From Bacteroidota bacterium (GTDB taxonomy: Bacteria > Bacteroidota > Bacteroidia > Cytophagales > Cyclobacteriaceae): 64,000 bases of DNA. The translations under genes were made by a program, and so were the position numbers. Under the pieces are notes generated by a model, which was given only the letters and a program-made list of their open reading frames with translations, was not told the DNA's origin and searched no databases. The stretch spans positions 1-64,000 of the forward strand of contig JACPVX010000045.1 of assembly GCA_016191555.1 (NCBI GenBank). Reading direction: 5' to 3'. Positions 19,758 to 63,797 of this stretch are shown here, one piece after another (position 1 is the stretch's first letter; every line of letters begins with the position of its first letter).

Positions 19758-22307
19758 CTAGAATGGAGTTTCATCATCACCACCTGGAGGTAAGGCTGGC
19801 GGCTCATCTCGGAAGTTGTTCAACCGGCTTTCGCGGGTAATGCTACTCATCGGAGTAAAGCCATCCGGAGCATCGTAGTCGGCAAACTTGGTGTATTTGC
19901 CAATGAACTTGAGCTTCACATTTTCAAGCGATCCGTTTCGATGTTTGGCAATGATTACCTCGGCCATACCTTGTGTAGGTAGTCCTTCCTCATCGACAGT
20001 AATCTTGTAGTATTCAGGACGATACAAGAACATAACAATATCCGCGTCCTGTTCGATAGATCCTGATTCACGTAAGTCAGAAAGCTGCGGGCGCTTATCG
20101 CCACCACGTGTTTCCACCCCACGACTTAATTGAGAAAGTGCAATCACCGGAACGGAAAGTTCTTTGGCAATTCCTTTCAGGGCACGTGAGATAGAAGCAA
20201 TTTCTTGTTCGCGGTTACCACTCGCTTCGCCTTTCATCAACTGCAGGTAGTCAATAACTACTAATTGTATGTTGTGCTCGGCTTTTAATCTGCGGCACTT
20301 GGCACGTAATTCAAGAATGGATAATGCCGGAGTATCGTCAATAAAAATAGGTGCGCTGGAAAGTCGGTTGGTTTTGTGTACCAACTGCTGCCATTCAAAC
20401 TCGGCCAAGTTTCCTTTCTTAATTTTCTCCGATTCCAATTCGGCTTCTGCAGAGATCAAACGATTTACCAACTGAAGTGACGCCATCTCTAAGGAGAAGA
20501 TCGCCACTGCGTGATTGAACTCAACAGCTGCATTGCGTAAGGCAGAGACCACAAATGCCGTGTTATGTGTTACCGTCATGTCCTCTAACAGGAACAAGCG
20601 GTTGCCATCAATTTCAAAACCATAGAAGTCATCTACCTGGTCAAATTCGAGTTTGATGCCGGTATGGCGCCAATCAATAATCGAATTCCGTTCGCGTGCC
20701 TTTTTGCGTTCTACGCGCGTAGGAATGATATTTAAATTCCCGCTGATCCTTACGCGATAAACGTCTTCTTCAAAACCACGATCGGCAATGGTTGCTTTCT
20801 TAGTACGAATGGAGGTTTTAAACCCGAGTGTATCGCACAAAAACTTGATTTGCTTCGCTAGGTCTTCACGCTTTTGCGTGATCTCAAATACATGATATTC
20901 ACTATCATAATGACCATCGGCATCCAATAATCCGGCAAGAAGCTGCAGGCGATTGGCAGTAGAGTTTATCAGATAATCATTTGGAATGTGTTTGTTTTCT
21001 AAGACATTCAATTCACGCAGGGAAGCCTGTGTTGATCCGGATGTTTTGCCTCGCTGGCCGCTCGTAATTCCGAAACTACTTGTTTTTCCAGCCTGCTGAT
21101 ATTCTACCAATTCCAGTTCTAAATCATCCGCATAATTTTCCAAATACTGAATCACTTCGGCATCGGTGTTGGTAATTCGTGAACTATACGAATGCCCATC
21201 TCCTAGCCAAAGGCCCAGAAAATACGGTTCCAGTTTCAACGACTTCTCTTCAAACTCGACCGCAACCTTATATCCTTTATAGTTCGATTTAAACTTATCG
21301 GACTTTTGGAGGTAATCGCGAACTTCAATATTCAATACTTCACCATGTTCGTGCCCACCTTCGGTTCTACTTCTCTTCAATGATAGAATGTGCGACTCGT
21401 TTACACGATAAGAAATTCCATGATTTTGGTGAACCCAATACATGTTTTCTCTACCTCTGCCAATGGACAAAACCTTGCGAGGGGATGAATCATCGCCCAT
21501 CAAAAGATCCCCAACCACAACATCTTCTACTTTCTTCAACTCGCCAGTGAACATGAGCACTTTCGTGCCTTTGCCCAGGCACTTACCCATACCGGGCCGC
21601 GCTGCGATAATCACCAAATCCGACTTCTGCCAACCGGAAGTCACACGATCTAGTCGCGAGAAACCACTCGGAATTCCTGTAAGGCCATCTTTGTGATTTT
21701 TCTTCTCCTGCAATTCCTGAATCGCCCGGTACATCAACGACTTCATGTTGTCGTAGTTCTTGCGCAGGTTCGAATCTGAAATTTGGAATATGGATTGTTC
21801 GGTCTTATCTAATAATTCGAATACATCTGTGGTATCCTCGTATGCATCCTGATGAACTTGGGAAGCAATTTGAATCAAGTCGCGCTTGATGGCCATCTCG
21901 ATGATGATACGCGCATGATATTCGATGTTCGCAGCCGAACTGACTTTGGAAGTAAGTTCAGCGATGTAGTAAGCCCCTCCTACCAATTCGAGTTTGGCGT
22001 TCTTCCGCAACTGCGCCACCACGGTGCGCATATCCACCGGCTCCGATGCTTTAAACAAGTCAATGATGGCGGTGAAAATCTCTTTGTGCTGTTCTTTGTA
22101 GAAATGATCGGGACGCAAGAACTCAACCACTGCGGTGAGGGCGTTCTTCTCCAGCATTAAGGCGCCCAAAATGGCTTCTTCCAAATCAACGGCCTGAGGT
22201 GGTAACTTACCTAAACTCTCGGAGATATCTCTCGCTAAAAGTTTAGATCTGTTACCGGTTCCGCTCATCACAGAACCTAACCTCGTTGGCGTTGACCGCT
22301 GCTCCAT
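19758..22307 (-). CDS. dnaB: Replicative DNA helicase with intein
   Basis: 849-aa precursor. Extein N: residues 1-242, with the DnaB N-terminal domain (PQAVDLEEAILGALML) and the start of the RecA-like domain, ending in the P-loop ARPGMGK. Residues 243-582 are an intein. Extein C: 583-849, starting TAFVVSALRNAA, with Walker B (LVVIDYLQLM), SRALKGIAKELSVPVIALSQLSR and the arginine region. After splicing the helicase is 509 aa, the normal length. It unwinds DNA at the replication fork as a hexamer. DnaA-box-like sites lie just upstream in the gap to the divergent transporter. Confidence 0.97.
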   Translation of the reverse strand: MEQRSTPTRLGSVMSGTGNRSKLLARDISESLGKLPPQAVDLEEAILGALMLEKNALTAVVEFLRPDHFYKEQHKEIFTAIIDLFKASEPVDMRTVVAQLRKNAKLELVGGAYYIAELTSKVSSAANIEYHARIIIEMAIKRDLIQIASQVHQDAYEDTTDVFELLDKTEQSIFQISDSNLRKNYDNMKSLMYRAIQELQEKKNHKDGLTGIPSGFSRLDRVTSGWQKSDLVIIAARPGMGKCLGKGTKVLMFTGELKKVEDVVVGDLLMGDDSSPRKVLSIGRGRENMYWVHQNHGISYRVNESHILSLKRSRTEGGHEHGEVLNIEVRDYLQKSDKFKSNYKGYKVAVEFEEKSLKLEPYFLGLWLGDGHSYSSRITNTDAEVIQYLENYADDLELELVEYQQAGKTSSFGITSGQRGKTSGSTQASLRELNVLENKHIPNDYLINSTANRLQLLAGLLDADGHYDSEYHVFEITQKREDLAKQIKFLCDTLGFKTSIRTKKATIADRGFEEDVYRVRISGNLNIIPTRVERKKARERNSIIDWRHTGIKLEFDQVDDFYGFEIDGNRLFLLEDMTVTHNTAFVVSALRNAAVEFNHAVAIFSLEMASLQLVNRLISAEAELESEKIKKGNLAEFEWQQLVHKTNRLSSAPIFIDDTPALSILELRAKCRRLKAEHNIQLVVIDYLQLMKGEASGNREQEIASISRALKGIAKELSVPVIALSQLSRGVETRGGDKRPQLSDLRESGSIEQDADIVMFLYRPEYYKITVDEEGLPTQGMAEVIIAKHRNGSLENVKLKFIGKYTKFADYDAPDGFTPMSSITRESRLNNFRDEPPALPPGGDDETPF
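20562..21581 (-). mobile_element. DnaB P-loop intein with LAGLIDADG endonuclease
   Basis: 1020 bp, 340 residues in frame, inserted between the Lys and Thr of the Walker A GKT, so unspliced protein cannot bind ATP. Splicing residues: Cys1 (CLGKGTKVLM), C-terminal His-Asn (TVTHN) and Thr at +1. Block F/G is VDDFYGFEIDGNRLFLLED. Block B reads VNESHIL, with Asn where Thr is usual. Two dodecapeptide endonuclease motifs are intact: FLGLWLGDGHS and LLAGLLDADGHYD, each with its acidic residue, so homing could still be active. The insertion point is a known DnaB intein site class. Confidence 0.95.
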
Positions 22308-50782: not shown

Positions 50783-52855
50783 TTACACTTGCATTTCATA
50801 GCACTCCCGCAGTAATTCATCTACAGCCGAAGTTTCAAACTGTTTCAGTTGCTTTTGAAGCATGGTATTGAAAGCATAATAGTTTTCTTTCTTTACAAAG
50901 GCAGCTTGGTTCATCCACTCTTCCGCTCCGTATTTCACCACATATTCTTCAATCTGTGTTTCTTCCATCCGCGAATGCGTAGTGAGGTACTCCGACAGTT
51001 TCAAAAGCAAAAGCTTGTTTCGCTTCATCAATTGCATGGCTTCCACCTCGCACACTTTGATCAGCTCCAACGCTTCGACTTCGTACTTCTGGTTCACTAA
51101 AAACACATCATCATTGTTAGTCGTCTTGATCGCCATGTGAATCGGGTCCTTCCCCATCGCGTAGTTTCTCACCGCCTTATTGGCTAATGATGACGCTTCT
51201 TCAATATCGGCATACACACCGGTGCTGGTAAAAGACTCACCAAAAATCAACTTCTCAGCTACATATCCACCCAGTGTAATGATGATATCCTTTCGTAGCG
51301 TATCACGGGTAACGGGTCCCTTCGGGAAGTTGATTTGGCAAAATCCTTCTTCGGAATCGGAAGCCGTGCGTGATACGATCAATGCCGGAATGATATGCAA
51401 AGTGGCTACAGCTAATACTGCATGACCTGCCTCGTGCACCGCAACGTGCGCCTGAATTTCGGGGTCACAGCTCTTGCGTAAGTTTTCCAATTTCAAAACC
51501 GCTTCATCGCTGATGGTTTTAATAAATTGATTCTGTTCATCACGCAGTTCAAAATAAAAATGCTGCTGCTCATAATACCAGCGAATGTTTTTCACAGGCA
51601 GATTTTCTTCCAACAGCATCACAGCCATTTTGCTGATGCGCGACTCGACCAGATTCTTAATCGTAGTAAAAATAGGGCGTGTGCCTTGCGATGGAAACAC
51701 ACCTTCGGCATAAATCACATCGGTTACGGAAGAATCAAACTGAATATTCCACGCAAATTGTTGCTCTACAAATTGTGCAATGCGATCAAATTGCATCTCA
51801 ATCAATTGGCGAAACTGCGCCTGATTGAATGACCGATAGATGATGTGGTTGTTTCCTAAACGTGCCACTTGCTCCGGACGAAATCGTTTTTTCAACGCCC
51901 GCTTGATATTCGCAATAGTGATTTTTGATGTTTCTTCATAAAAATCATCGGCACTCATATCCGGATTCATGTTATGACTCATGCGGTAGGCTTCATCTAA
52001 ATTGCCCAGAATAAAAATCAACGATCGGGAAAGATCTAATTCCCGTGTAGCTGATCGCATCTTCATAGCATTAAGTATGTGATTGGCCAATTCTTGTAAT
52101 GAAGAATCGGAAACTATGCGCTTCACATCTTCTTTCGTGATTTCACTTTCAACCATCAAGCCTCGCATTCCTTCCAGAAAATCCGCTGAAATAAAATAGT
52201 CTTTGTTGATCGTCCGATAGCGTTGATCATGATTATCGAAGTAAAATCCTTCAAAAATAGTTACAAACCATTCTTCCTCTGCCACAACAACTCCCTGCTC
52301 GAGGCGAACACCCACACGCAGTGCTTTCTCTATTCGCTTCAAACAACTTTCTGCGCGAAAGAGATAAAAGCTGTTGTTGCCCGGTGTATGAGAAATTTTG
52401 CCCGAGTCAATCAACTCCCAGATCACCCGCAGTTTATCTTTACCCAACTCTTCACCATTCTGATTAAGTGTGCGGGCAAATTGAAATTCATCTAAACACA
52501 ACACGGCTGGTTTGCCATCAAAAAAATCCATGTCGTCAGTTAAGATGTTTTTCAACCAGGATGCAGAATCAGATTCAAACTCGCCCATATCGATGTGTGC
52601 GAAAAGTTGTTTGTATTCCAGCAATTCAATTAAACGCTGGACTAATGCAGTTTTACCGGAACCCGTCAATCCCCATAAATTAATCACCGTTGGACGTAAT
52701 TGTGCTTCGGGAAAAAGGTACCATGGCATCAACAAAGAAATCACTTCATCGATAATGGCATCCAGACCTAAAAATTGTTTTTTCAATGCATCCGACACCT
52801 CGCGTAGTTTTTGCCGCTTGGTAATCAGATCATGATAATTTGTATTTGTACTCAT
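50783..52855 (-). CDS. Clp-type AAA+ ATPase fused to FtsH-type M41 protease
   Basis: 690 aa from the ATG at 52855. No membrane segment, unlike FtsH. ATPase: Walker A GLTGSGKT (62-69), Walker B VLCLDEF, sensor 1 in FILGNLDEAYR, an Arg finger-like KKRFRPEQVARLG, and sensor 2 in QGTRPIFTTIKNLVESR. The last two match the ClpB/ClpA D2-small pattern, not the FtsH AAA module. Peptidase: HEAGH zinc motif (474-478), GPVTRDTLRKDIIITLGGYV and the third-ligand segment STGVYADIEEASS, as in FtsH M41. So it is a soluble ATP-driven zinc protease with a mixed pedigree. It is divergent from the tRNA-like region. Confidence 0.85.
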   Translation of the reverse strand: MSTNTNYHDLITKRQKLREVSDALKKQFLGLDAIIDEVISLLMPWYLFPEAQLRPTVINLWGLTGSGKTALVQRLIELLEYKQLFAHIDMGEFESDSASWLKNILTDDMDFFDGKPAVLCLDEFQFARTLNQNGEELGKDKLRVIWELIDSGKISHTPGNNSFYLFRAESCLKRIEKALRVGVRLEQGVVVAEEEWFVTIFEGFYFDNHDQRYRTINKDYFISADFLEGMRGLMVESEITKEDVKRIVSDSSLQELANHILNAMKMRSATRELDLSRSLIFILGNLDEAYRMSHNMNPDMSADDFYEETSKITIANIKRALKKRFRPEQVARLGNNHIIYRSFNQAQFRQLIEMQFDRIAQFVEQQFAWNIQFDSSVTDVIYAEGVFPSQGTRPIFTTIKNLVESRISKMAVMLLEENLPVKNIRWYYEQQHFYFELRDEQNQFIKTISDEAVLKLENLRKSCDPEIQAHVAVHEAGHAVLAVATLHIIPALIVSRTASDSEEGFCQINFPKGPVTRDTLRKDIIITLGGYVAEKLIFGESFTSTGVYADIEEASSLANKAVRNYAMGKDPIHMAIKTTNNDDVFLVNQKYEVEALELIKVCEVEAMQLMKRNKLLLLKLSEYLTTHSRMEETQIEEYVVKYGAEEWMNQAAFVKKENYYAFNTMLQKQLKQFETSAVDELLRECYEMQV

Positions 52856-53035
52856 TGTTAAGCTCAATAAAAAGTAAATAAAGAGCTACTCCTTGCTATC
52901 GACAGCTTAATAGACATCAATGCGAACTAGAACAATAACAATTGTCCGAGAGCAACTTGTCAGATAAATGTGAGTAAAGGAAATAGCGAATCGATCAGTT
53001 GAGAAATCTCAACTAATAGCTACTTGCGGATATGT

Positions 53036-53049
53036 AAATGTAGTACAAA
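53036..53049 (-). promoter_or_regulatory. Shared TTTGTACTACATTT motif, protease copy
   Basis: Minus-strand TTTGTACTACATTT, 14/14 identical to the copy at 16367, about 180 bp upstream of the AAA-M41 gene. The rest of the 52856-53221 gap shows only AT-rich DNA with no ORF. Confidence 0.35.
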
Positions 53050-53221
53050 CATAATTTCTTCTTTAATAAGTGTGATAAGAAGAACAGTGACACAAAAGTA
53101 TGCTGAGTTTTTTAATTCTTCCTAACATCATTGAGAATTTATTTTTCCGAAGAGTTCATGGCAACTATCTATGCAGCCTTTTTGCGCAGAAGAAATAAAC
53201 TTAACTTTTCATCTTGAGCAC

Positions 53222-53253
53222 TTGTTTGGTCGAATATGCTCCTGTTATATTTG
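53222..53253 (+). promoter_or_regulatory. Consensus promoter of the 29-codon ORF
   Basis: TTG (53222-53224), 21-bp spacer, perfect TATATTTG (53246-53253). The predicted start is 0-3 nt before the ATG at 53261, so the transcript would be nearly leaderless. Confidence 0.6.
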
Positions 53254-53260
53254 CACCATC

Positions 53261-53350
53261 ATGAACAAGAACCAATCACTTTTTAATCATTATCGCATGC
53301 CGAGTATACGTTTTGAGTATTCGGAAAGTCTGCGCGTGGTTAAGATTTGA
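53261..53350 (+). CDS. Candidate 29-residue peptide
   Basis: MNKNQSLFNHYRMPSIRFEY... ending SLRVVKI, 29 aa. Supported by a perfect promoter directly upstream and an intrinsic terminator 28 bp downstream, i.e. a complete tiny transcription unit; the sequence itself is not recognised. Basic and amphipathic. Could be a regulatory leader peptide (attenuation before the tRNA-like region), a toxin, or chance. Confidence 0.4.
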   Translation: MNKNQSLFNHYRMPSIRFEYSESLRVVKI

Positions 53351-53377
53351 GTTTGATTATACATTATCAAAAACAAA

Positions 53378-53406
53378 AACCCCGGGTCAGACACTCGGGG
53401 TTTTTT
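53378..53406 (+). terminator. Terminator after the 29-codon ORF
   Basis: Stem AACCCCG / CGGGGTT with an 11-nt loop, followed by TTTTTT. Ends the small transcript 45 bp before the first tRNA-like element, or attenuates read-through into it. Confidence 0.85.
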
Positions 53407-53450: not shown

Positions 53451-53527
53451 CGAGACATATCGGCTCACGCTTATATCGTGTAGAAACCGTAACTGGTTAC
53501 ATGATGGTTCGAATCCATCTGTCTCGA
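53451..53527 (+). tRNA. tRNA-like element A (perfect acceptor and T-arm)
   Basis: Acceptor CGAGACA / TGTCTCG (7/7) with A as discriminator, and a perfect T-arm GATGG-TTCGAAT-CCATC. No D-arm is found. The first internal hairpin, CACG/CGTG with a 7-nt loop CTTATAT (U33 present; anticodon position UAU), could be the anticodon arm, and AACC/GGTT a variable arm. No encoded CCA. Either a D-armless odd tRNA or a degenerate copy. Confidence 0.5.
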
Positions 53528-53537
53528 CTTAATTTAT

Positions 53538-53610
53538 TGGAGATTAAGCTAACTAAGTAGAAGCGTCCCGTTGAAGCCGGGAAGGACTGGAGCATTACCA
53601 GTAATCTCCA
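53538..53610 (+). tRNA. tRNA-like element B (cloverleaf with abnormal T-loop)
   Basis: 11 bp after element A, same strand. Acceptor TGGAGAT / ATCTCCA (extendable to 9 bp), D-stem GCT/AGC, anticodon arm TCCCG-TTGAAGC-CGGGA (5 bp, 7-nt loop, U33, anticodon GAA), and a T-stem ACTGG/CCAGT whose loop is AGCATTA instead of TTCRANY. The D-loop lacks GG. All stems pair but the loops are non-canonical, so it is a structured mimic rather than an ordinary tRNA-Phe. Confidence 0.35.
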
Positions 53611-53762
53611 CTTAGCCCTGGTGGCGGTGATGTGATAGCATAGCAAGCAGACAAATGCGTAGCGTTTCGCTAAGATCGAAGTTGAAATCTTCCACATCAC
53701 GCTCATTCTCATTTCGAGCGGCATGAATGCGTTACATGGTGATGAATATTTGTGCAGGAAGA

Positions 53763-53833
53763 GAAGACAGAAGGCTTCGAACCCTCACTCTGTTGGTTCG
53801 TAGCCAACTGATTTTCCATTAATCTATGTCTTC
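53763..53833 (-). tRNA. tRNA-Arg(ACG)-like gene C
   Basis: 71 nt, full cloverleaf. Acceptor GAAGACA / TGTCTTC (7/7), D-stem GAT/ATC with GG in the loop, anticodon arm GTTGG-CTACGAA-CCAAC. The loop CTACGAA is identical to that of ordinary bacterial tRNA-Arg(ACG). T-arm GAGGG-TTCGAAG-CCTTC (one G-T). No CCA is encoded, and the discriminator position is T, which is odd for Arg. The most tRNA-like of the cluster. Confidence 0.6.
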
Positions 53834-54154
53834 TTTGAAATTGTTCTTCATGTAAAGAAAGAAGTCTGAACCATCTCCTCATCACCCTGCGGAAGAATGC
53901 TTGAATAAAAACTCTGCCGATACTGTTTCTTATCGCGCGCTAAGCAGCGGACCATAAGAAAGAGAATGGTTGGCTTTTACCAATGGCCTTCTTGCAAAGC
54001 AAAACAACAAGTGTGCAGTCAGTGCTAGGGCGCTAACTGATTGCACTGAGGTGTCTCAAACTTCTTTTGAGCGGGCTGTTTTTAAGGAAGTCAACCCAAC
54101 TTCCGCATGGAGGATTTACCCGTCCATTACTCACCAAACGAGTCTCAATTTACA
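53834..54154. other. Hairpin-rich gene-free stretch inside the tRNA-like cluster
   Basis: No ORF with support. Strong hairpins: 54013-54046 (GTGCAGTCAGT / ACTGATTGCAC, 11 bp, one G-T), 54055-54071 (CTCAAA/TTTGAG) and a GGAAGT/ACTTCC stem with 7-nt loop near 54090. Some may be decayed tRNA arms. Also to the left, 53628-53698 is enclosed by GTGATGTG/CACATCAC with three inner arms. Confidence 0.35.
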
Positions 54155-54212
54155 GTTGAGAGCGGGATTCGAACCCGCGTTTACTGTTGCTCTACCATTG
54201 AGCTATCTTAAA
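54155..54212 (-). pseudogene. tRNA remnant D lacking its anticodon arm
   Basis: Minus strand: canonical D-arm GCTC-AATGGTA-GAGC preceded by TA, and a perfect T-arm GCGGG-TTCGAAT-CCCGC. Only 10 nt (AACAGTAAAC) lie between them where about 23 are needed, so the anticodon arm is missing. The acceptor strands TTTAAGA / TCTCAAC pair in 5 of 7. A further hairpin TCTCAA-CTGTAAA-TTGAGA follows at about 54143-54161; its loop equals a tRNA-Tyr(GUA) anticodon loop. Confidence 0.55.
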
Positions 54213-54332
54213 GAGAAGGATTCGAACCTTCAACCCACAGATAAGGAAACAACTCTCCGTCAAAGCAGCATATTGTCACCTATTTTCGTGACAACACTAT
54301 GGGGTTTTCCGAAGCCCGCATCCGGTCTTTGA
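54208..54332 (-). other. tRNA-like element E (long, T-arm perfect)
   Basis: T-arm GAAGG-TTCGAAT-CCTTC followed by TCTTTAA. The best 5' partner, TCAAAGA, is about 110 nt upstream (one mismatch), giving an unusually long element of 125 nt. In between are CCG/CGG, a stem AACCC-CATAG / CTGTGGGTT and the 7-bp hairpin TTGTCAC/GTGACAA. Shares 5 bases with element D. Pairing of the two ends is a guess. Confidence 0.3.
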
Positions 54333-54563
54333 CTTATCATCTTTCCCCGTTTCATTTCAAGCCTTTCGCCTGAAAGAAAGTCTTTACCGGTTGCCCGGAA
54401 TATCTTTTTATGTTTTGTTCATTCATTTCTGTTCAAAAGCCACTCCGACCAATTTCGGAGTGGCGCCCGCTTTCTCTTATCACGCAACAAAATTGACCTG
54501 CTGCTGCGCAGTCTATTTGCGCACACAAATTATTTTCAATACTTTTTCCAAAATATTATTCTC
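54333..54563. other. Gene-free stretch before the WYL-PhyH gene
   Basis: Contains a perfect 10-bp hairpin GCCACTCCGA / TCGGAGTGGC at 54439-54464. On the minus strand it is followed by TTTTG, so it could be a terminator facing left; on the plus strand it could be an operator for the WYL-PhyH gene. Nothing else recognisable. Confidence 0.45.
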
Positions 54564-56288
54564 ATGCCGGTAAACCGCAATGCTCTAATTCGCTTTCGTA
54601 CGATTGATGAATGTCTCAAAAACCGACAGCGCAGATGGACACTCCAAGATTTAATTGACGCTTGCTCGGAAGCTCTTTATGAATATGAAGGCATTGATAA
54701 AGGGGTGAGCCGCAGAACCGTGCAAATGGATTTGCAATTGATGCGCAGCGACAAGCTGGGATACAATGCACCGATTCAAGTGTTGGAGAAGAAATATTAT
54801 ACGTATGAAGATCCCAACTATTCCATTACCGACATTCCTCTCACCAAACAAGATTTAGGCAAGCTGACAGAAGTGGTGGAAATACTCCGGCAATTCAAAG
54901 GGTTTAGTCACTTTCAGGAACTGAGTGGCATGGTGCAGCGACTCGAAAACAAAATCCACACAGCCAAAACCAATCAGGAGCCGATCATCGACTTTGAAAA
55001 GAATGATCACCTGAAAGGACTCGAACATATTGAAACGCTCTATCAAACCATTCTACAAAAGAATGCAGTAGAACTTACGTACCAAAGTTTCAGAGCCAAG
55101 GAGGCTTCGACATTTGCATTTCATGCTTATTACTTAAAAGAATACCGCAATCGCTGGTTTGTGCTAGGTAATAAAGGTAAAAATGCACCTATTCTTACAC
55201 TCGCTCTTGATCGGATCATTTCTATTGAAGAATCACCTATTAAGTATATAGAACGAAAAGGTTTTCATCCGGCCGAATATTTTAATCATGTGATTGGTGT
55301 AACTGTAGAACCCACTACCCTACCGGAAGAAATAAGAATCTTTGCCGACCGCGACACCGCTCCTTACATTGCTACCAAGCCGATCCATCATAGTCAGCAG
55401 ATTATTGACGAGCAACCGCATGGAACTATCTTTTCTTTGCACGTGCAACTCAACTTTGAATTAGAACGTGAGTTGCTTGGCTTTGGCGACCGCATCAAAG
55501 TATTAAGCCCCGAACGCCTGAAGCGAAGAATCAAAGAAAAATATGAACACGCTCTGGATTTGTATCAATATGAGTTCACGAATACTTCTATTGCGAGCGA
55601 ACTGAAGAAGTTTTATCACAAGGGATTTGCCATGCTTCGCTATGTTTATACACGCAAGGAGCTCAATCAAATTAAAACAACGATTGATCATTACTTTAAG
55701 AATAATCCTGAGAAAGAGGCGTATTCGATCAGACGTTTACTCGTTGCCATCCCCGAACTAAAATCAGTGGTGTTGAATGCCAACTTAAATTCTATTCTAA
55801 AGAAGATTCATCCGGACTTACGTTTGTCGAAAGCTATTTTCTTTGACAAAACTCCGGATAGCAATTGGTATGTCACGTGGCATCAGGATATCACCATTAA
55901 TGTTACTCAGAAGAAAGAAACAGAAGGTTATTCCGGTTGGTCGAAGAAAGATGGATTCTTTAGTGTTTGTCCACCCGAAGATGTTTTAAAAAACACCGTC
56001 ACTATTCGAATTCATCTAGATGATGCAGATGATTATAATGGAGCACTGAAAGTAATTCCAGGCTCACACAACAAAAAGTTAAGCGATGCTGAGATTCAGT
56101 TGATCACTCAAAATAGTCTAGCCTATGATTGTGTGATACGAGCAGGCGGTATTAACCTGATGCGGCCTCTCCTACTTCATGCGTCAGCCAAGGCTATCAA
56201 TCAAAAACACAGACGAGTGATTCATCTGGAGTTTACTTCAGCACAATTGCCGGAGGGATTGACATGGGCGGAAAAGCTATCGATCTAA
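54564..56288 (+). CDS. WYL regulator fused to a PhyH-type dioxygenase
   Basis: 574 aa. Residues 1-85 are a winged HTH (RRWTLQDLIDACSEALYEYE, VSRRTVQMDLQLMR), 150-230 a WYL domain (AVELTYQSFRAKE, HAYYLKEYRNRWFVLG) and 240-335 a WYL C-terminal extension. Residues 340-574 are a PhyH-like dioxygenase with HxD at H440/D442 (TWHQDITINV), NGALKVIPGSHN and distal H539 with R550/R551 (LLLHAS, HRRVIHLEF). WYL proteins are ligand- and nucleic-acid-sensing regulators, often in defence loci; fusion to a dioxygenase is unusual. Frame is continuous, with no stop or gap at the junction. Confidence 0.85.
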   Translation: MPVNRNALIRFRTIDECLKNRQRRWTLQDLIDACSEALYEYEGIDKGVSRRTVQMDLQLMRSDKLGYNAPIQVLEKKYYTYEDPNYSITDIPLTKQDLGKLTEVVEILRQFKGFSHFQELSGMVQRLENKIHTAKTNQEPIIDFEKNDHLKGLEHIETLYQTILQKNAVELTYQSFRAKEASTFAFHAYYLKEYRNRWFVLGNKGKNAPILTLALDRIISIEESPIKYIERKGFHPAEYFNHVIGVTVEPTTLPEEIRIFADRDTAPYIATKPIHHSQQIIDEQPHGTIFSLHVQLNFELERELLGFGDRIKVLSPERLKRRIKEKYEHALDLYQYEFTNTSIASELKKFYHKGFAMLRYVYTRKELNQIKTTIDHYFKNNPEKEAYSIRRLLVAIPELKSVVLNANLNSILKKIHPDLRLSKAIFFDKTPDSNWYVTWHQDITINVTQKKETEGYSGWSKKDGFFSVCPPEDVLKNTVTIRIHLDDADDYNGALKVIPGSHNKKLSDAEIQLITQNSLAYDCVIRAGGINLMRPLLLHASAKAINQKHRRVIHLEFTSAQLPEGLTWAEKLSI

Positions 56289-61001: not shown

Positions 61002-61469
61002 TTAATTGCCGTATTTGATCGTCACGCCTTCATGGGCAATCTCAATGCTATCAATAGCAACCTCATTGCCATCTGATTTCAGGTCTGTGGCACTAACTTT
61101 CGTAGGCCACGCGTTGTTCAGTGTCCACGTCACAATTACTTGATCGTTCTGATCCAACAGCTTAATGACAACAGCCAATCGCTCGATGGTGTTCATTTTA
61201 ATCTGACTGTACCACGTCCAGAATAAAGCGTCATTGGCAAAAATGCCACGCTTCATCGTTACATTTCCATACTTCGCAATGCCCGGCATTTTTACGGTAG
61301 AGAAATTGCGACTGTTTGAATCGCGGTATTCAATGATTTGTGTTTCGGCATCTAAGCCCGACACTTCCTGAAAGGATAGGTTGGTTTGTTTCGTACCCCA
61401 GTCAACCGAGAACCTAAACTTCGGTGTAGGCCAAGGGGCGCCCGGTGTTGTTTCTTGATGATCTGCCAT
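61002..61469 (-). CDS. Contractile-system tail tube protein (T4 gp19-like)
   Basis: 155 aa, the size of contractile-system inner tube proteins. Typical features: KFRFSVDWGTKQTNLSFQEV, LDAETQIIEYRDSN, and GNVTMKRGIFANDALFWTWY. Tubes of stacked hexamers lie inside the sheath. Third visible gene of a DUF4255-sheath-tube set; the distance to the sheath gene is 45 bp. Confidence 0.9.
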   Translation of the reverse strand: MADHQETTPGAPWPTPKFRFSVDWGTKQTNLSFQEVSGLDAETQIIEYRDSNSRNFSTVKMPGIAKYGNVTMKRGIFANDALFWTWYSQIKMNTIERLAVVIKLLDQNDQVIVTWTLNNAWPTKVSATDLKSDGNEVAIDSIEIAHEGVTIKYGN

Positions 61470-61514
61470 GGTGTTGTGTATTCAAATTGTCGTGAGTCTG
61501 TGAATAGAAATAAT

Positions 61515-63068
61515 TTAAGATTTAGCCAGGTGTTGCACCACCGACAAAACAATAAATTCAGCAGGACGCGCGATCGCAATGAGAATGGTGACACGCATAT
61601 ATCCATCCAGGACATCCTGCGGAGCCATGGTCACTCCCAATCCTATCTCCACTTTAAAGGCAGCATCGGGCGATGATCCCTGCAAGGCTCCTTCTTTCCA
61701 TAAATTGGTTAAGAAGTTGGTCAGCATGCTTTTTACAGAGTTCCAGGTGGTGGAAACGTTGGCTTCAAATACATAAGATCGCAAGGCAAGTTTAACCGAT
61801 TGCTCAATCATGGTAGCGGTTCTGCGCACATTGATATAGCGCCAGTCCTGGCTGTTGCCATCGAGTGTTCTGGCACCCCACAACAACACTCCCTGGCCAG
61901 GGAAGAATCGAAAAGCATTGACGGATTTACCACTTACCGCATCCACGTTCAATCCACTCTGATCATCGTCATTTAATTGCATCGTCAGATTGGTGACACC
62001 CACGGGCGAAACGTTAGCAGGGGCATTCCAAACTCCTCTGGATGCATCGACATGACTAAACACACCGGCAACAATACCACTAGGTGGCAAGGTATTTATT
62101 TGTTCTAAAATGATGGCCAGCAATGATGCATAGACTTTGCTCGCCATCATGAACGCTTGATTATTTTGACGCACTGAAAGTGAATTACCACTCTTGATGG
62201 AGTTAATGATTTCAGCCGCTACCGGATTAGGGCTTGTCGCGGGATTTAAGATGTCCATCAGCACCGACACATCTCCACCATTGATGTTAGTGTAATCTAC
62301 CTGATCAATCGACATGGCGGTGGTGTTCAAATAAGGAAAGTAGGCCGCTCCATATTTTAAACCATTGTTGCGGGTGGCGTTTCTGAATTTGGTAATATCA
62401 TCTACCCACAATTGTGGATCCGGCTCGCGTCCGCCTTTTACATCGATGACCGTCATGGATGTTTGCAGGTCGCTGTTTTGCAATAACATCTCTTCTATTA
62501 AAGTAGAGTACTCGGCATCGGATAGTAAGGTGGACTCCGGTGCGACATACATCGTTACATCTTCAAACTTTTTCAATACTTGCAAAGCTGATTGAAAGTC
62601 GGCCAGTTTTACGTTGACGTTGATCATTTCTTCTCCCGCGTTAATGGGTGTGTTGGTGGCGGCTCCGTAGGTACCCAGCGAAACGATGTAGGCTACTCCC
62701 CCGCCATTTTGAAAAAACATCGCCACACTATTATAGAGATAGTAGATGGTGCCGGGGTCGGGCTCAATGGTGTAGAGGTCGCCATTGAATGAATATGATT
62801 TTCCGGCAGCCGGTGCTTTCTTCTGCTTTGTCAAATAATACGATGGCAAATAGGGTTTAGCCAACGGATCGGGGTTCAAAAAGAATGTATTAAAATCCTC
62901 CATCGAAGTAATTCGTGTCGGCTTCATGACAGAAGACGTGCCTTCGTAGGTAGCATAAGGTGTATAACCGATAAAGGCAGGAATTGCTGTGGCTACGGGA
63001 ACCACGGAATTGGGAAATGCATTTATCTCTTGAACGTAAACACCCGGAGTCTTCCAATCTTTGCTCAT
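61515..63068 (-). CDS. Contractile tail sheath protein
   Basis: 517 aa. N-terminus MSKDWKTPGVYVQEINAFPN and PVATAIPAFIGYTPYATYEG are characteristic of phage/eCIS sheath subunits. The C-terminus (GALQGSSPDAAFKVEIGLGV, VTILIAIARPAEFIVL) is the conserved sheath core that contacts neighbours. Contraction drives the tube through a target membrane. Only one sheath gene is visible, where some systems have two or three. Confidence 0.93.
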   Translation of the reverse strand: MSKDWKTPGVYVQEINAFPNSVVPVATAIPAFIGYTPYATYEGTSSVMKPTRITSMEDFNTFFLNPDPLAKPYLPSYYLTKQKKAPAAGKSYSFNGDLYTIEPDPGTIYYLYNSVAMFFQNGGGVAYIVSLGTYGAATNTPINAGEEMINVNVKLADFQSALQVLKKFEDVTMYVAPESTLLSDAEYSTLIEEMLLQNSDLQTSMTVIDVKGGREPDPQLWVDDITKFRNATRNNGLKYGAAYFPYLNTTAMSIDQVDYTNINGGDVSVLMDILNPATSPNPVAAEIINSIKSGNSLSVRQNNQAFMMASKVYASLLAIILEQINTLPPSGIVAGVFSHVDASRGVWNAPANVSPVGVTNLTMQLNDDDQSGLNVDAVSGKSVNAFRFFPGQGVLLWGARTLDGNSQDWRYINVRRTATMIEQSVKLALRSYVFEANVSTTWNSVKSMLTNFLTNLWKEGALQGSSPDAAFKVEIGLGVTMAPQDVLDGYMRVTILIAIARPAEFIVLSVVQHLAKS

Positions 63069-63143
63069 AGTTGTTCTTTATTCTTTTTTGTGAACGGGTA
63101 CGATGATCTCAGCTATCGATTTTTCCTCTTTACACGGAACCAT

Positions 63144-63797
63144 TCAGGAAATTGAAGATAAGTCCGATGCGCGAGCTTCAAATGAAAGCGTACGCACTTT
63201 AAATACTACTGATGGCATGTACCTGACTCCCATCGCACCCCACAAACTTTGCCGTTGATGTTCATTTAAATTGATCAGTTCAAATTTGAGTTCGTGAATG
63301 TGGTTATCTAATGAAGGCGTGTTATCACCATTAAATATATTTTTAGCTTGAAAGAAGTAGATCGTTTCCGATAAGTACTTCAATCCTTCATCGTAGTTGG
63401 GCGCTTCAAATACAGCCGTGATCAGGACATCGAGGTTGAAGTGATAAGGAACGTTCGCTGGCTTTTTGGTGAGGTGGTTCTTCCGATTTGAAGATTTGCT
63501 GATGACATATTCCAGGTTAATTAAAGACAGCACCATTTGATTGCGGCTGTTCTCGGCAATGCTTCCATCCTGCACTACGATTGAATTGACTACGGCTGCC
63601 CTGTGTCCATCCACTTTGAATCGCGCTACTAAATAGTCGTTCAATTCGTTGGCTACGGTGTGTAATGCATGGTATATCATTTTTTTTTGTACTAATGAAC
63701 TTGATCGGTCTCTTCTAAATTTGACGTAACGATGTAAAAACTTGCTGATTATTTTCTGATCGTACACACGATATCTACCATTGCTTTTCCAACTCAA
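63144..63797 (-). CDS. DUF4255 (Pvc16-like tail-terminator) protein
   Basis: 217 aa. The block MIYHALHTVANELNDYLVARF and NQMVLSLINLEYVISK, with YHFNLDVLITAVF and MGVRYMPSVVFKVRTL, matches the DUF4255 family that caps contractile injection systems. The first in-frame ATG at 63797 is used; a later ATG (MIYHALHT, about 63680) is an alternative and may be the true start because the ~38 extra residues are basic. Sits upstream of the sheath gene, as in Bacteroidota eCIS loci. Confidence 0.88.
   Translation of the reverse strand: MSWKSNGRYRVYDQKIISKFLHRYVKFRRDRSSSLVQKKMIYHALHTVANELNDYLVARFKVDGHRAAVVNSIVVQDGSIAENSRNQMVLSLINLEYVISKSSNRKNHLTKKPANVPYHFNLDVLITAVFEAPNYDEGLKYLSETIYFFQAKNIFNGDNTPSLDNHIHELKFELINLNEHQRQSLWGAMGVRYMPSVVFKVRTLSFEARASDLSSIS

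Follow-up and report, generated by a model that had tools for sequence, protein, structure and literature searches.

Conserved tRNA-like RNAs with a leader, a terminator and a predicted attenuation switch in a candidate stress-RNA locus of Bacteroidota

Background

Why should less than one kilobase of a bacterial chromosome encode five RNAs that resemble tRNAs, several of which lack an arm or carry altered loops? Are they decaying copies or molecules kept by selection, and what would they do for the cell? The question is raised by positions 53451-54350 of a 64,000-nucleotide stretch of DNA (the window) from a Bacteroidota bacterium of the family Cyclobacteriaceae (GenBank assembly GCA_016191555.1, contig JACPVX010000045.1). 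A first-pass annotation had described here a cluster of tRNA and tRNA-like cloverleaves on both strands, recognized by four T-arm motifs, and had offered two explanations, i.e. a decaying (e.g. phage-derived) tRNA cluster or selected tRNA mimics in a locus that senses or repairs cleaved tRNA.

Both RtcB and long tRNA arrays are known from bacteria, to our knowledge without a clear picture of how tRNA damage is detected and answered. Our comparison of sequences makes it fairly probable that the window holds a reduced yet retained version of a stress-RNA locus of Bacteroidota with attenuated substitute tRNA-like RNAs. If this is true, the problem of sensing tRNA damage would have a simple solution in leaders reading the tRNAs under their control. 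The contig of the window is 115 kb long and belongs to genome G000, whose 4.1-Mb assembly is 77% complete; below, L with a number denotes a fetched locus of a relative and G with a number a sampled genome.

Results

The region encodes E1, E2 and E3 on the plus strand, and tRNA-Arg(ACG) and a composite RNA, T54, on the minus strand. The sole ARAGORN call is tRNA-Arg(ACG) at 53761..53833 (minus), a canonical tRNA as already proposed. It scores 60.2 bits with the Rfam tRNA model, whose cut-off is 29 bits, and is 88% identical to the Arg(ACG) tRNA between Band-7 and RtcB in L031 and in the congeneric genome G034. Two further places exceed this cut-off, namely 53451-53527 (plus, 31.8 bits), which is E1 and had rightly been taken for an element without a D-arm, and 54154-54212 (minus, 41.7 bits). 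The latter had been listed as an element without an anticodon arm; its likeness to tRNA is real, but it is a part of T54 and no separate gene. The pattern GGTTCRANYCC occurs four times in the window against 0.55 expected, an above-chance excess, and three of the four lie inside the region. However, the T-arms at 54162 and 54215 are two arms of one RNA and not separate elements, as the helices of T54 covary within one alignment; the T-arm of tRNA-Arg is a variant that escapes the pattern. The earlier inventory overlooked the third plus-strand RNA, E3, and its end at 54332 falls short of the structured RNA, which reaches at least 54350. None of the three plus-strand RNAs is a canonical cloverleaf: E1 has no D-arm, E2 has altered loops and E3 has no recognizable anticodon. 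Only one open reading frame (ORF) of at least 100 amino acids lies between the flanking AAA-M41 and WYL-PhyH genes, and a coding reading of 53970-54332 was rejected since this 120-residue ORF has no Pfam match and overlaps T54.

E1, E2, E3 and T54 are conserved structured RNAs. With nhmmer, E1 (53451..53527, plus) has 21 matches (15 distinct), E2 (53538..53611, plus) 22 (17 distinct) and E3 (53627..53700, plus) 21 (15 distinct). In the E1 alignment (n = 14), 99.2% of the cells are paired, 7 of the 19 pairs changed on both sides, and the covariation score is 0.265 against 0.111 for shuffles. The corresponding figures are 99.6%, 7 of 19 and 0.262 against 0.103 for E2 (n = 15), 99.7%, 11 of 22 and 0.481 against 0.202 for E3 (n = 15), and 91.5%, 19 of 27 and 0.465 against 0.206 for T54 (n = 20). 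Each of the four scores was reached by none of 500 shuffles, which ignore the kinship among the related sequences. A measure of further pair types does not rise above the shuffles, 147, 141 and 194 of 500 being as high for T54, E3 and E1, respectively. The D-arm and T-arm of E2 and the first hairpin of E3 are invariant, and the covariation bears on the remaining stems only; for E1, two nested pairing models are near-equal, with scores of 0.265 and 0.276. The E1-E3 alignments leave out repeat fetches (L110 = L031, L112 = L067, L116 = L069, L117 = L077, L119 = L070), as well as the insert-bearing L073 and L075 for E2 and L111 for E1; L114, which is closely related to L077, stayed in for E2 and E1 and was omitted for E3. 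The covariation check that had been suggested for selected mimics thus gives a positive answer, with compensatory base changes in all four odd RNAs.

E2 resembles tRNA-Phe(GAA). Its loop reads TTGAAGC, and ARAGORN assigns more distant E2 relatives in three arrays to Phe(gaa). The T-loop is AGCGTTA in 14 relatives and AGCATTA in the window; the non-canonical T-loop seen at first is therefore real, but it is a conserved variant and not a corruption, because it is kept across the 15 aligned sequences. Its D-loop is likewise non-canonical and conserved. By eye, the elbow of E2 has changed from G18/U55 to A18/G55 and from U54/A58 to A54/U58, in a position numbering assigned by eye; L234, L235 and L237 retain G18 and U55 by the same inspection, unlike E2 of the window. 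E1 has the loop CTTATA(C/T), CTTATAT in the window. It adjoins Arg(tct) in L068 and resembles the Ile(tat) tRNAs that adjoin Arg(tct) in L235 and L237, and is probably a D-armless derivative of tRNA-Ile(UAU). E3 consists of an 8-bp acceptor, two hairpins, one of them invariant and the other freely varying, and a T-arm.

Palindromes like CCCGATAG..ATCGGG were seen inside tRNA-like genes at L073 3824-3913, L075 9877-9972, L111 3642-3736 and L069 9108-9200; in E2 of L073 and L075 the insert sits in the anticodon loop.

These RNAs are kept well beyond the window. All five, E1, E2, E3, Arg and T54, occur in the same order in the close relatives L107 and L109 with 93-99% identity. In G034, E1-E2-E3 keep this order and lie divergently to a second RtcB and AAA-M41. 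In the family sample, 10 of 196 genomes (the window's own included) match some part of E1-E3. E2 is found at 88-99% identity over 73-79 bases in six genomes (two other genera) and more weakly in three genomes of a third, and in other genera E1-E3 also lie within tRNA arrays. Across the order sample, the E2 model matches 14 of 390 genomes, i.e. the own genome, seven strong non-self ones and six weak ones (34-39 bits), the last being set aside as ARAGORN calls Val(gac) at those places. A relative of the WYL protein is present in all seven strong genomes, compared with 110 of the 390 in total. Conservation across genera and the compensatory changes in the stems lead us to reject decay for the elements taken together. 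A phage origin found no support either: blastn against 50,697 phage records matched 46 query bases in two records, 3% of the region.

E1-E3 are preceded by a promoter box, then a leader ORF and then an intrinsic terminator. The promoter, TTTG-N17-TATATTTG, lies at 53225..53253 (plus), and L107, L109 and L031 have a TAnnTTTG box at the corresponding position; we take TAnnTTTG to be the Bacteroidota-type -7 consensus. It is followed at 53261..53350 (plus) by an ORF of 29 residues, MNKNQSLFNHYRMPSIRFEYSESLRVVKI and a stop, which shares a PS[IL]RF motif with L107, L109 and L031. A GC-rich inverted repeat and a T-run, the rho-independent terminator, occupy 53375..53406 (plus) ahead of E1, so that the leader ORF stands between promoter and terminator (53225-53406). 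The same layout was detected at 25 of 78 tRNA-cluster starts and at 21 of 42 starts of clusters with at least three tRNAs, against 0 of 390 shuffled sequences and 8 of 1308 random windows; it was not found at L268, L270, L070 and L073. The last 75 nucleotides of the leader ORF can pair with the 5' half of the terminator, as an antiterminator would have to, beyond mononucleotide shuffles (p <= 0.05) in 8 of 10 representatives, with z -2.08 and p 0.05 in the window, and this pairing is aided by a self-complementary CCCGGG. Rfam leader families match the window only weakly, below the cut-off. The promoter, short leader ORF and terminator ahead of E1-E3 and of the relatives' arrays are new here; among open-licence papers we found no published description of tRNA arrays with such leader attenuation.

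Do the leaders spell the amino acids of the tRNAs behind them? L265, with a Phe-like E2 and four Leu tRNAs, has the leader MKTQLLFSLYLFLLSAQDGVN, from which that of its sister L266 differs by three synonymous changes. L271 (E2 and Cys) has MILIQNIFFFCCSPDFIRPEEDLY, L069 (Pro, Gln, His, Arg and Ser) has MNKRHSHSSYRQPQPSQQDREDELCMPE, and L267 (Lys, Asn, Trp, Asp, Phe, Tyr and Ser) has the two leaders MKSNQNTYKNFNDSSFSWTPQPRAICIDI and MKTMKQHNHNYSFSDWGFFWSDVPTKGDGIYT. Ten operons were hand-picked from 24 distinct leaders to limit relatedness, and a first permutation test on them gave p = 4.5e-5. L267 (one of its two leaders) and L184, which had not passed a stricter rule, were added later to make 12. 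Across these 12 operons, 109 of 345 leader residues are of the operon's own isotypes, against 59.7 expected from local protein composition. The sum of z is 26.4, against 8.6 +/- 3.5 when leaders are permuted, and none of 200,000 permutations is as high; without L265 and L271 the p-value is 1.25e-4. All 24 distinct leaders, which are not independent, give 236 of 710 against 145.9 expected. The first leader of L069, the leaders of L111 and L076 and the second leader of L118 are not significant singly. In this counting E1 was taken as Ile and E2 as Phe; E3, unassigned calls and an ARAGORN Gly(ccc) call in L069, which carries a palindromic insert, were omitted. That leader residues follow the encoded isotypes across operons suggests that the products relieve the shortage being sensed.

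The arrays of relatives hold up to 17 ARAGORN tRNAs, and some of them have the many supernumerary tRNAs typical of long arrays, which the window, with E1-E3, Arg and T54 only, does not. We compared the array tRNAs with housekeeping tRNAs of the same anticodon, the latter taken from the single genome G072. Among the 144 canonical rows, which include related loci and at least one tRNA that lies in no array (L111 17072) and omit two Ile(UAU) without a housekeeping counterpart, U33 is kept in 144 of 144, and positions 32, 37 and 38 equal housekeeping in 102, 99 and 105, respectively. Anticodon stems are 40% identical and bodies 61%. The T-loop motif is present in 119 of 146 array tRNAs (39 of 41 housekeeping) and the D-loop GG in 142 of 146 (40 of 41). 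Divergent stems with kept loops would fit substitutes that nucleases read poorly, and would also fit decoys or simple long divergence.

T54 is built from two domains. Its 3' domain (54150..54263, minus) is a permuted tRNA fold with the topology of YrlA, i.e. a T-arm, a closed acceptor-like hairpin, a D-arm and a covarying closing stem, within a second T-arm and a weak outer stem (65% of cells paired). Helices 2-5, the permuted module of T-arm, closed acceptor and D-arm, have 95-100% of their cells paired, each with two-sided changes, and sliding the model along the alignment gives scores of at most 0.158. The 5' domain (54264..54350, minus, a lower bound) has two covarying helices (n = 16; 99.1% paired, 5 of 7 pairs changed on both sides, 0.540 against 0.208 shuffled). 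The alignment of T54 omits L153 (tandem tRNAs) and uses each genome once, with L110 in place of L031; that of the 5' domain further omits four Flavobacteriia sequences of a different 5' type. YrlA (RF02553) scores at T54 are 33.6 bits in the window, 41.7 in L110, 43.4 in L113 and 40.7 in L171, with further matches beside T54 in L113 (40.5 bits) and L171 (50.0 bits), and every one of these is below the gathering cut-off of 69 bits. With nhmmer, T54 has 23 matches in fetched loci, 21 of them distinct. Its covariance model is unspecific, matching 364 of 390 genomes, many at 150-190 nucleotides as would two neighboring ordinary tRNAs, and we therefore limited the analysis to the best 20 matches and their neighborhoods. 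Seventeen of the best 19 non-self matches have Band-7 just downstream on the same strand, and two of the 19 are tandem tRNAs. No TAnnTTTG box was found within 200 nucleotides upstream of T54 in any of the 20 sequences. We take T54 to be a putative Y-RNA-like RNA, which lies upstream of Band-7 in relatives and appears to be retained in the window with no Band-7 after it.

In G034, Band-7 and a Pro tRNA stand between T54 and Arg. In the window, the stretch between the Arg tRNA and T54 (53834-54149) has 93% and 89% matches in L107 and L109, respectively, and contains an imperfect inverted repeat; no Pfam-bearing gene and no Rfam family were found in it.

A second, short leader lies ahead of the AAA-M41 gene, which encodes an FtsH-like AAA+ ATPase-peptidase (50783..52867, minus; Pfam M41 and ClpB_D2-small). 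A -7 promoter box of the Bacteroidota type, TACTTTTG (53093..53100, minus), aligned across relatives, is followed by a 10-residue leader peptide, MFVLHLHIRK and a stop (53020..53052, minus), and an inverted-repeat hairpin (52994..53017, minus). The same order of promoter box, 10-residue M(L/F)VLxLHIxx peptide and possible hairpin stands before RtcB2 in relatives and in the window's genome, the candidate hairpin upstream of RtcB2 in relatives having been placed by eye. When we scanned 1.95 Mb, which include the same genome twice (L110 = L031, L117 = L077) and near relatives, for M[LF]V..LHI.., 16 of the 17 matches lay 167-238 nucleotides upstream of RtcB2 (13) or AAA-M41 (3); shuffled sequence gave six matches anywhere.

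The neighboring genes point to RNA repair in relatives. An AAA-M41 homolog, 68% identical, directly follows RtcB in L031, and a second RtcB is likewise paired with AAA-M41 in L077, L100, L103 and L105. On the other side of the region, divergent from T54, lies the gene of a WYL-WCX-PhyH regulator-like protein (54564..56288, plus; Pfam). A scan with seven aligned proteins of this type gave 347 stretches, of which the best 80 were kept, some of their loci ending at contig ends; their flanks contain RtcB in 63, Band-7 in 31, RlaP in 24 and an ARAGORN tRNA in 36. A Ro60-type TROVE protein is encoded in 6 of 11 genomes searched, in two within ~7 kb of the array; it was not found in the window's genome (77% complete) nor in the four others. 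RlaP was not found in the window's genome either. The two RtcB genes of this genome adjoin each other on another contig, and none is on the contig of the window. The proposed link of the locus to the repair of cleaved tRNA is supported by relatives with RtcB, RlaP, Band-7 and Ro60/TROVE, but no RtcB was found in the window itself. Residues H440, D442 and H539 of the PhyH domain are kept in all seven aligned proteins and look like an Fe(II)/2-oxoglutarate triad; the WYL-PhyH regulator may thus also be an oxygenase.

Several other genes were seen near the arrays or in the window. A HigBA-like toxin-antitoxin pair, with the toxin below the Pfam cut-off, lies beside the array in L067, L068, L069, L071, L072 and L077, and a DUF4180 gene lies directly 3' of E2-E3 in the same loci with the exception of L077. 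In L077, a protein of the RNA_ligase family (PF09414; 12007-12702) is encoded between the array and RtcB2-AAA-M41, with near-array homologs in L070, L114 and L118. A T4-like tail tube (gp19), a tail sheath and Pvc16_N are encoded in a row at 61002-63797 of the window, a contractile injection-type cluster ~5 kb from the WYL-PhyH gene. A DnaB helicase gene at 19758-22307 contains an in-frame intein, in which Hint and LAGLIDADG homing endonuclease domains were recognized.

Discussion

How might these parts work together? We lean slightly towards a self-matching switch, in which the leader peptides would spell the amino acids of the encoded tRNAs so that a shortage induces the replacement, a parallel leader would induce RtcB and AAA-M41, and the window would retain E1-E3 and T54. 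When certain tRNAs are cleaved or uncharged, the ribosome would stall in the leader; the terminator would then not form, and transcription would reach E1-E3 and produce substitute tRNA-like RNAs. With a leader that matches the encoded tRNAs, shortage of a tRNA could directly turn on its own replacement. The M[LF]VLxLHI.. leader that precedes AAA-M41 in the window and RtcB2 on the other contig may turn on proteolysis and repair under similar stress, and the unusual bodies of the substitutes may shield them from nucleases that cut normal tRNAs.

A number of observations weigh against this picture. The window leader does not match its own RNAs (4 of 28 residues against 0.12 expected, z 0.34), nor does that of L031 (3 of 29 residues). 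Half of the clusters with at least three tRNAs (21 of 42), including the Flavobacteriia arrays inspected, have no detectable leader, and the antiterminator pairing has the limits of its shuffles and of CCCGGG given above. The lack of a recognizable anticodon argues against a decoding role for E3. Neither RtcB nor Band-7 was found in the window, the rest of the genome not having been searched for Band-7, and AAA-M41 is present in only 5 of the 80 WYL-PhyH loci. In the seven strong E2 genomes of the order sample, E2 and the WYL relative are on different contigs or 34-50 kb apart, so the linkage is not tight everywhere.

An alternative hypothesis could be that E1-E3 and T54 never decode and have retained an anticodon-like loop or an elbow as a binding site for nucleases that cut tRNA, for the WYL protein, for RtcB or for Ro60, the array serving as bait or signal. 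Such decoys or sensors could do without the anticodon of E3 and the D-arm of E1 and could bear the palindromic inserts in the anticodon loop of E2 in L073 and L075; they would also suit array tRNAs that keep U33 in 144 of 144 and share only 40% of their anticodon stems with housekeeping tRNAs. YrlA may inhibit an anticodon nuclease, as suggested in PMC7790460. We nevertheless regard this hypothesis as unlikely, since the leader codons match the encoded isotypes and most array tRNAs in relatives look complete (T-loop motif in 119 of 146, D-loop GG in 142 of 146).

Could the array members simply be supernumerary tRNA genes, unusual but working, with the leader and terminator belonging to incidental upstream transcription units? 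Variant T-loops do exist elsewhere, e.g. the loop ATCGTGC in a housekeeping tRNA of G072 called Met(cat). We consider this quite improbable given how often the leader layout occurs (25 of 78 starts, but none of 390 shuffled sequences), the codon match and the recurrent linkage with RtcB loci. Least credible of all is a degenerate, now functionless remnant of a larger tRNA array, since the drop from up to 17 ARAGORN tRNAs in relatives to few in the window, the lack of Band-7 and RtcB and the disrupting inserts in L073, L075 and L111 are outweighed by the compensatory changes, the conserved odd loops, the 93-99% identity in relatives and the conserved promoter box, leader and terminator.

Comparison with known systems

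A reduced stress-RNA locus with attenuated substitutes, as we propose for the window, has parallels in several known systems. In Anabaena PCC 7120, TrcR represses an operon of 26 tRNAs, which stays silent until translational stress, and deletion of trcR raises rtcB and a slipin gene (PMC10272220). The likeness is a supernumerary tRNA array tied to an rtcB and slipin response. Control there is by a ribbon-helix-helix repressor on dispersed genes, whereas here the genes are linked, with a WYL-PhyH protein and predicted leader/terminator switches; moreover, several RNAs of the window locus lack tRNA arms.

Salmonella has an operon, rsr-yrlBA-rtcBA, that combines Y RNAs and Ro60 with RtcB, and YrlA is the suggested nuclease inhibitor mentioned above (PMC7790460). 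Relatives of the window share a Y-RNA-like permuted tRNA near RtcB, and some genomes share TROVE. Unlike YrlA, T54 is below the YrlA cut-off, lies upstream of Band-7 in relatives and has a second T-arm and a 5' domain of its own, and it is present in genomes where TROVE was not found.

The his, thr and leu attenuators resemble the arrays in having a promoter, a leader ORF rich (across operons) in the relevant residues, antiterminator potential and an intrinsic terminator. They differ in that the controlled products here are tRNAs, and the Rfam leader matches are weak and below the cut-off. Phage tRNAs whose mutated loops let them escape anticodon nucleases (PMC10264068) share the idea of a nuclease-insensitive substitute; the present RNAs, by contrast, belong to bacterial chromosomes, and their loops are largely kept while their stems differ.

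The window locus resembles a mix of the Anabaena and Salmonella systems. By the features tested it is a member of neither, because the array is too small, the Y-like RNA is below the cut-off and the control elements differ. To these systems it adds a conserved family of tRNA-like RNAs, which in the window escape ARAGORN, and a putative Y-RNA-like RNA near RtcB in Bacteroidota.

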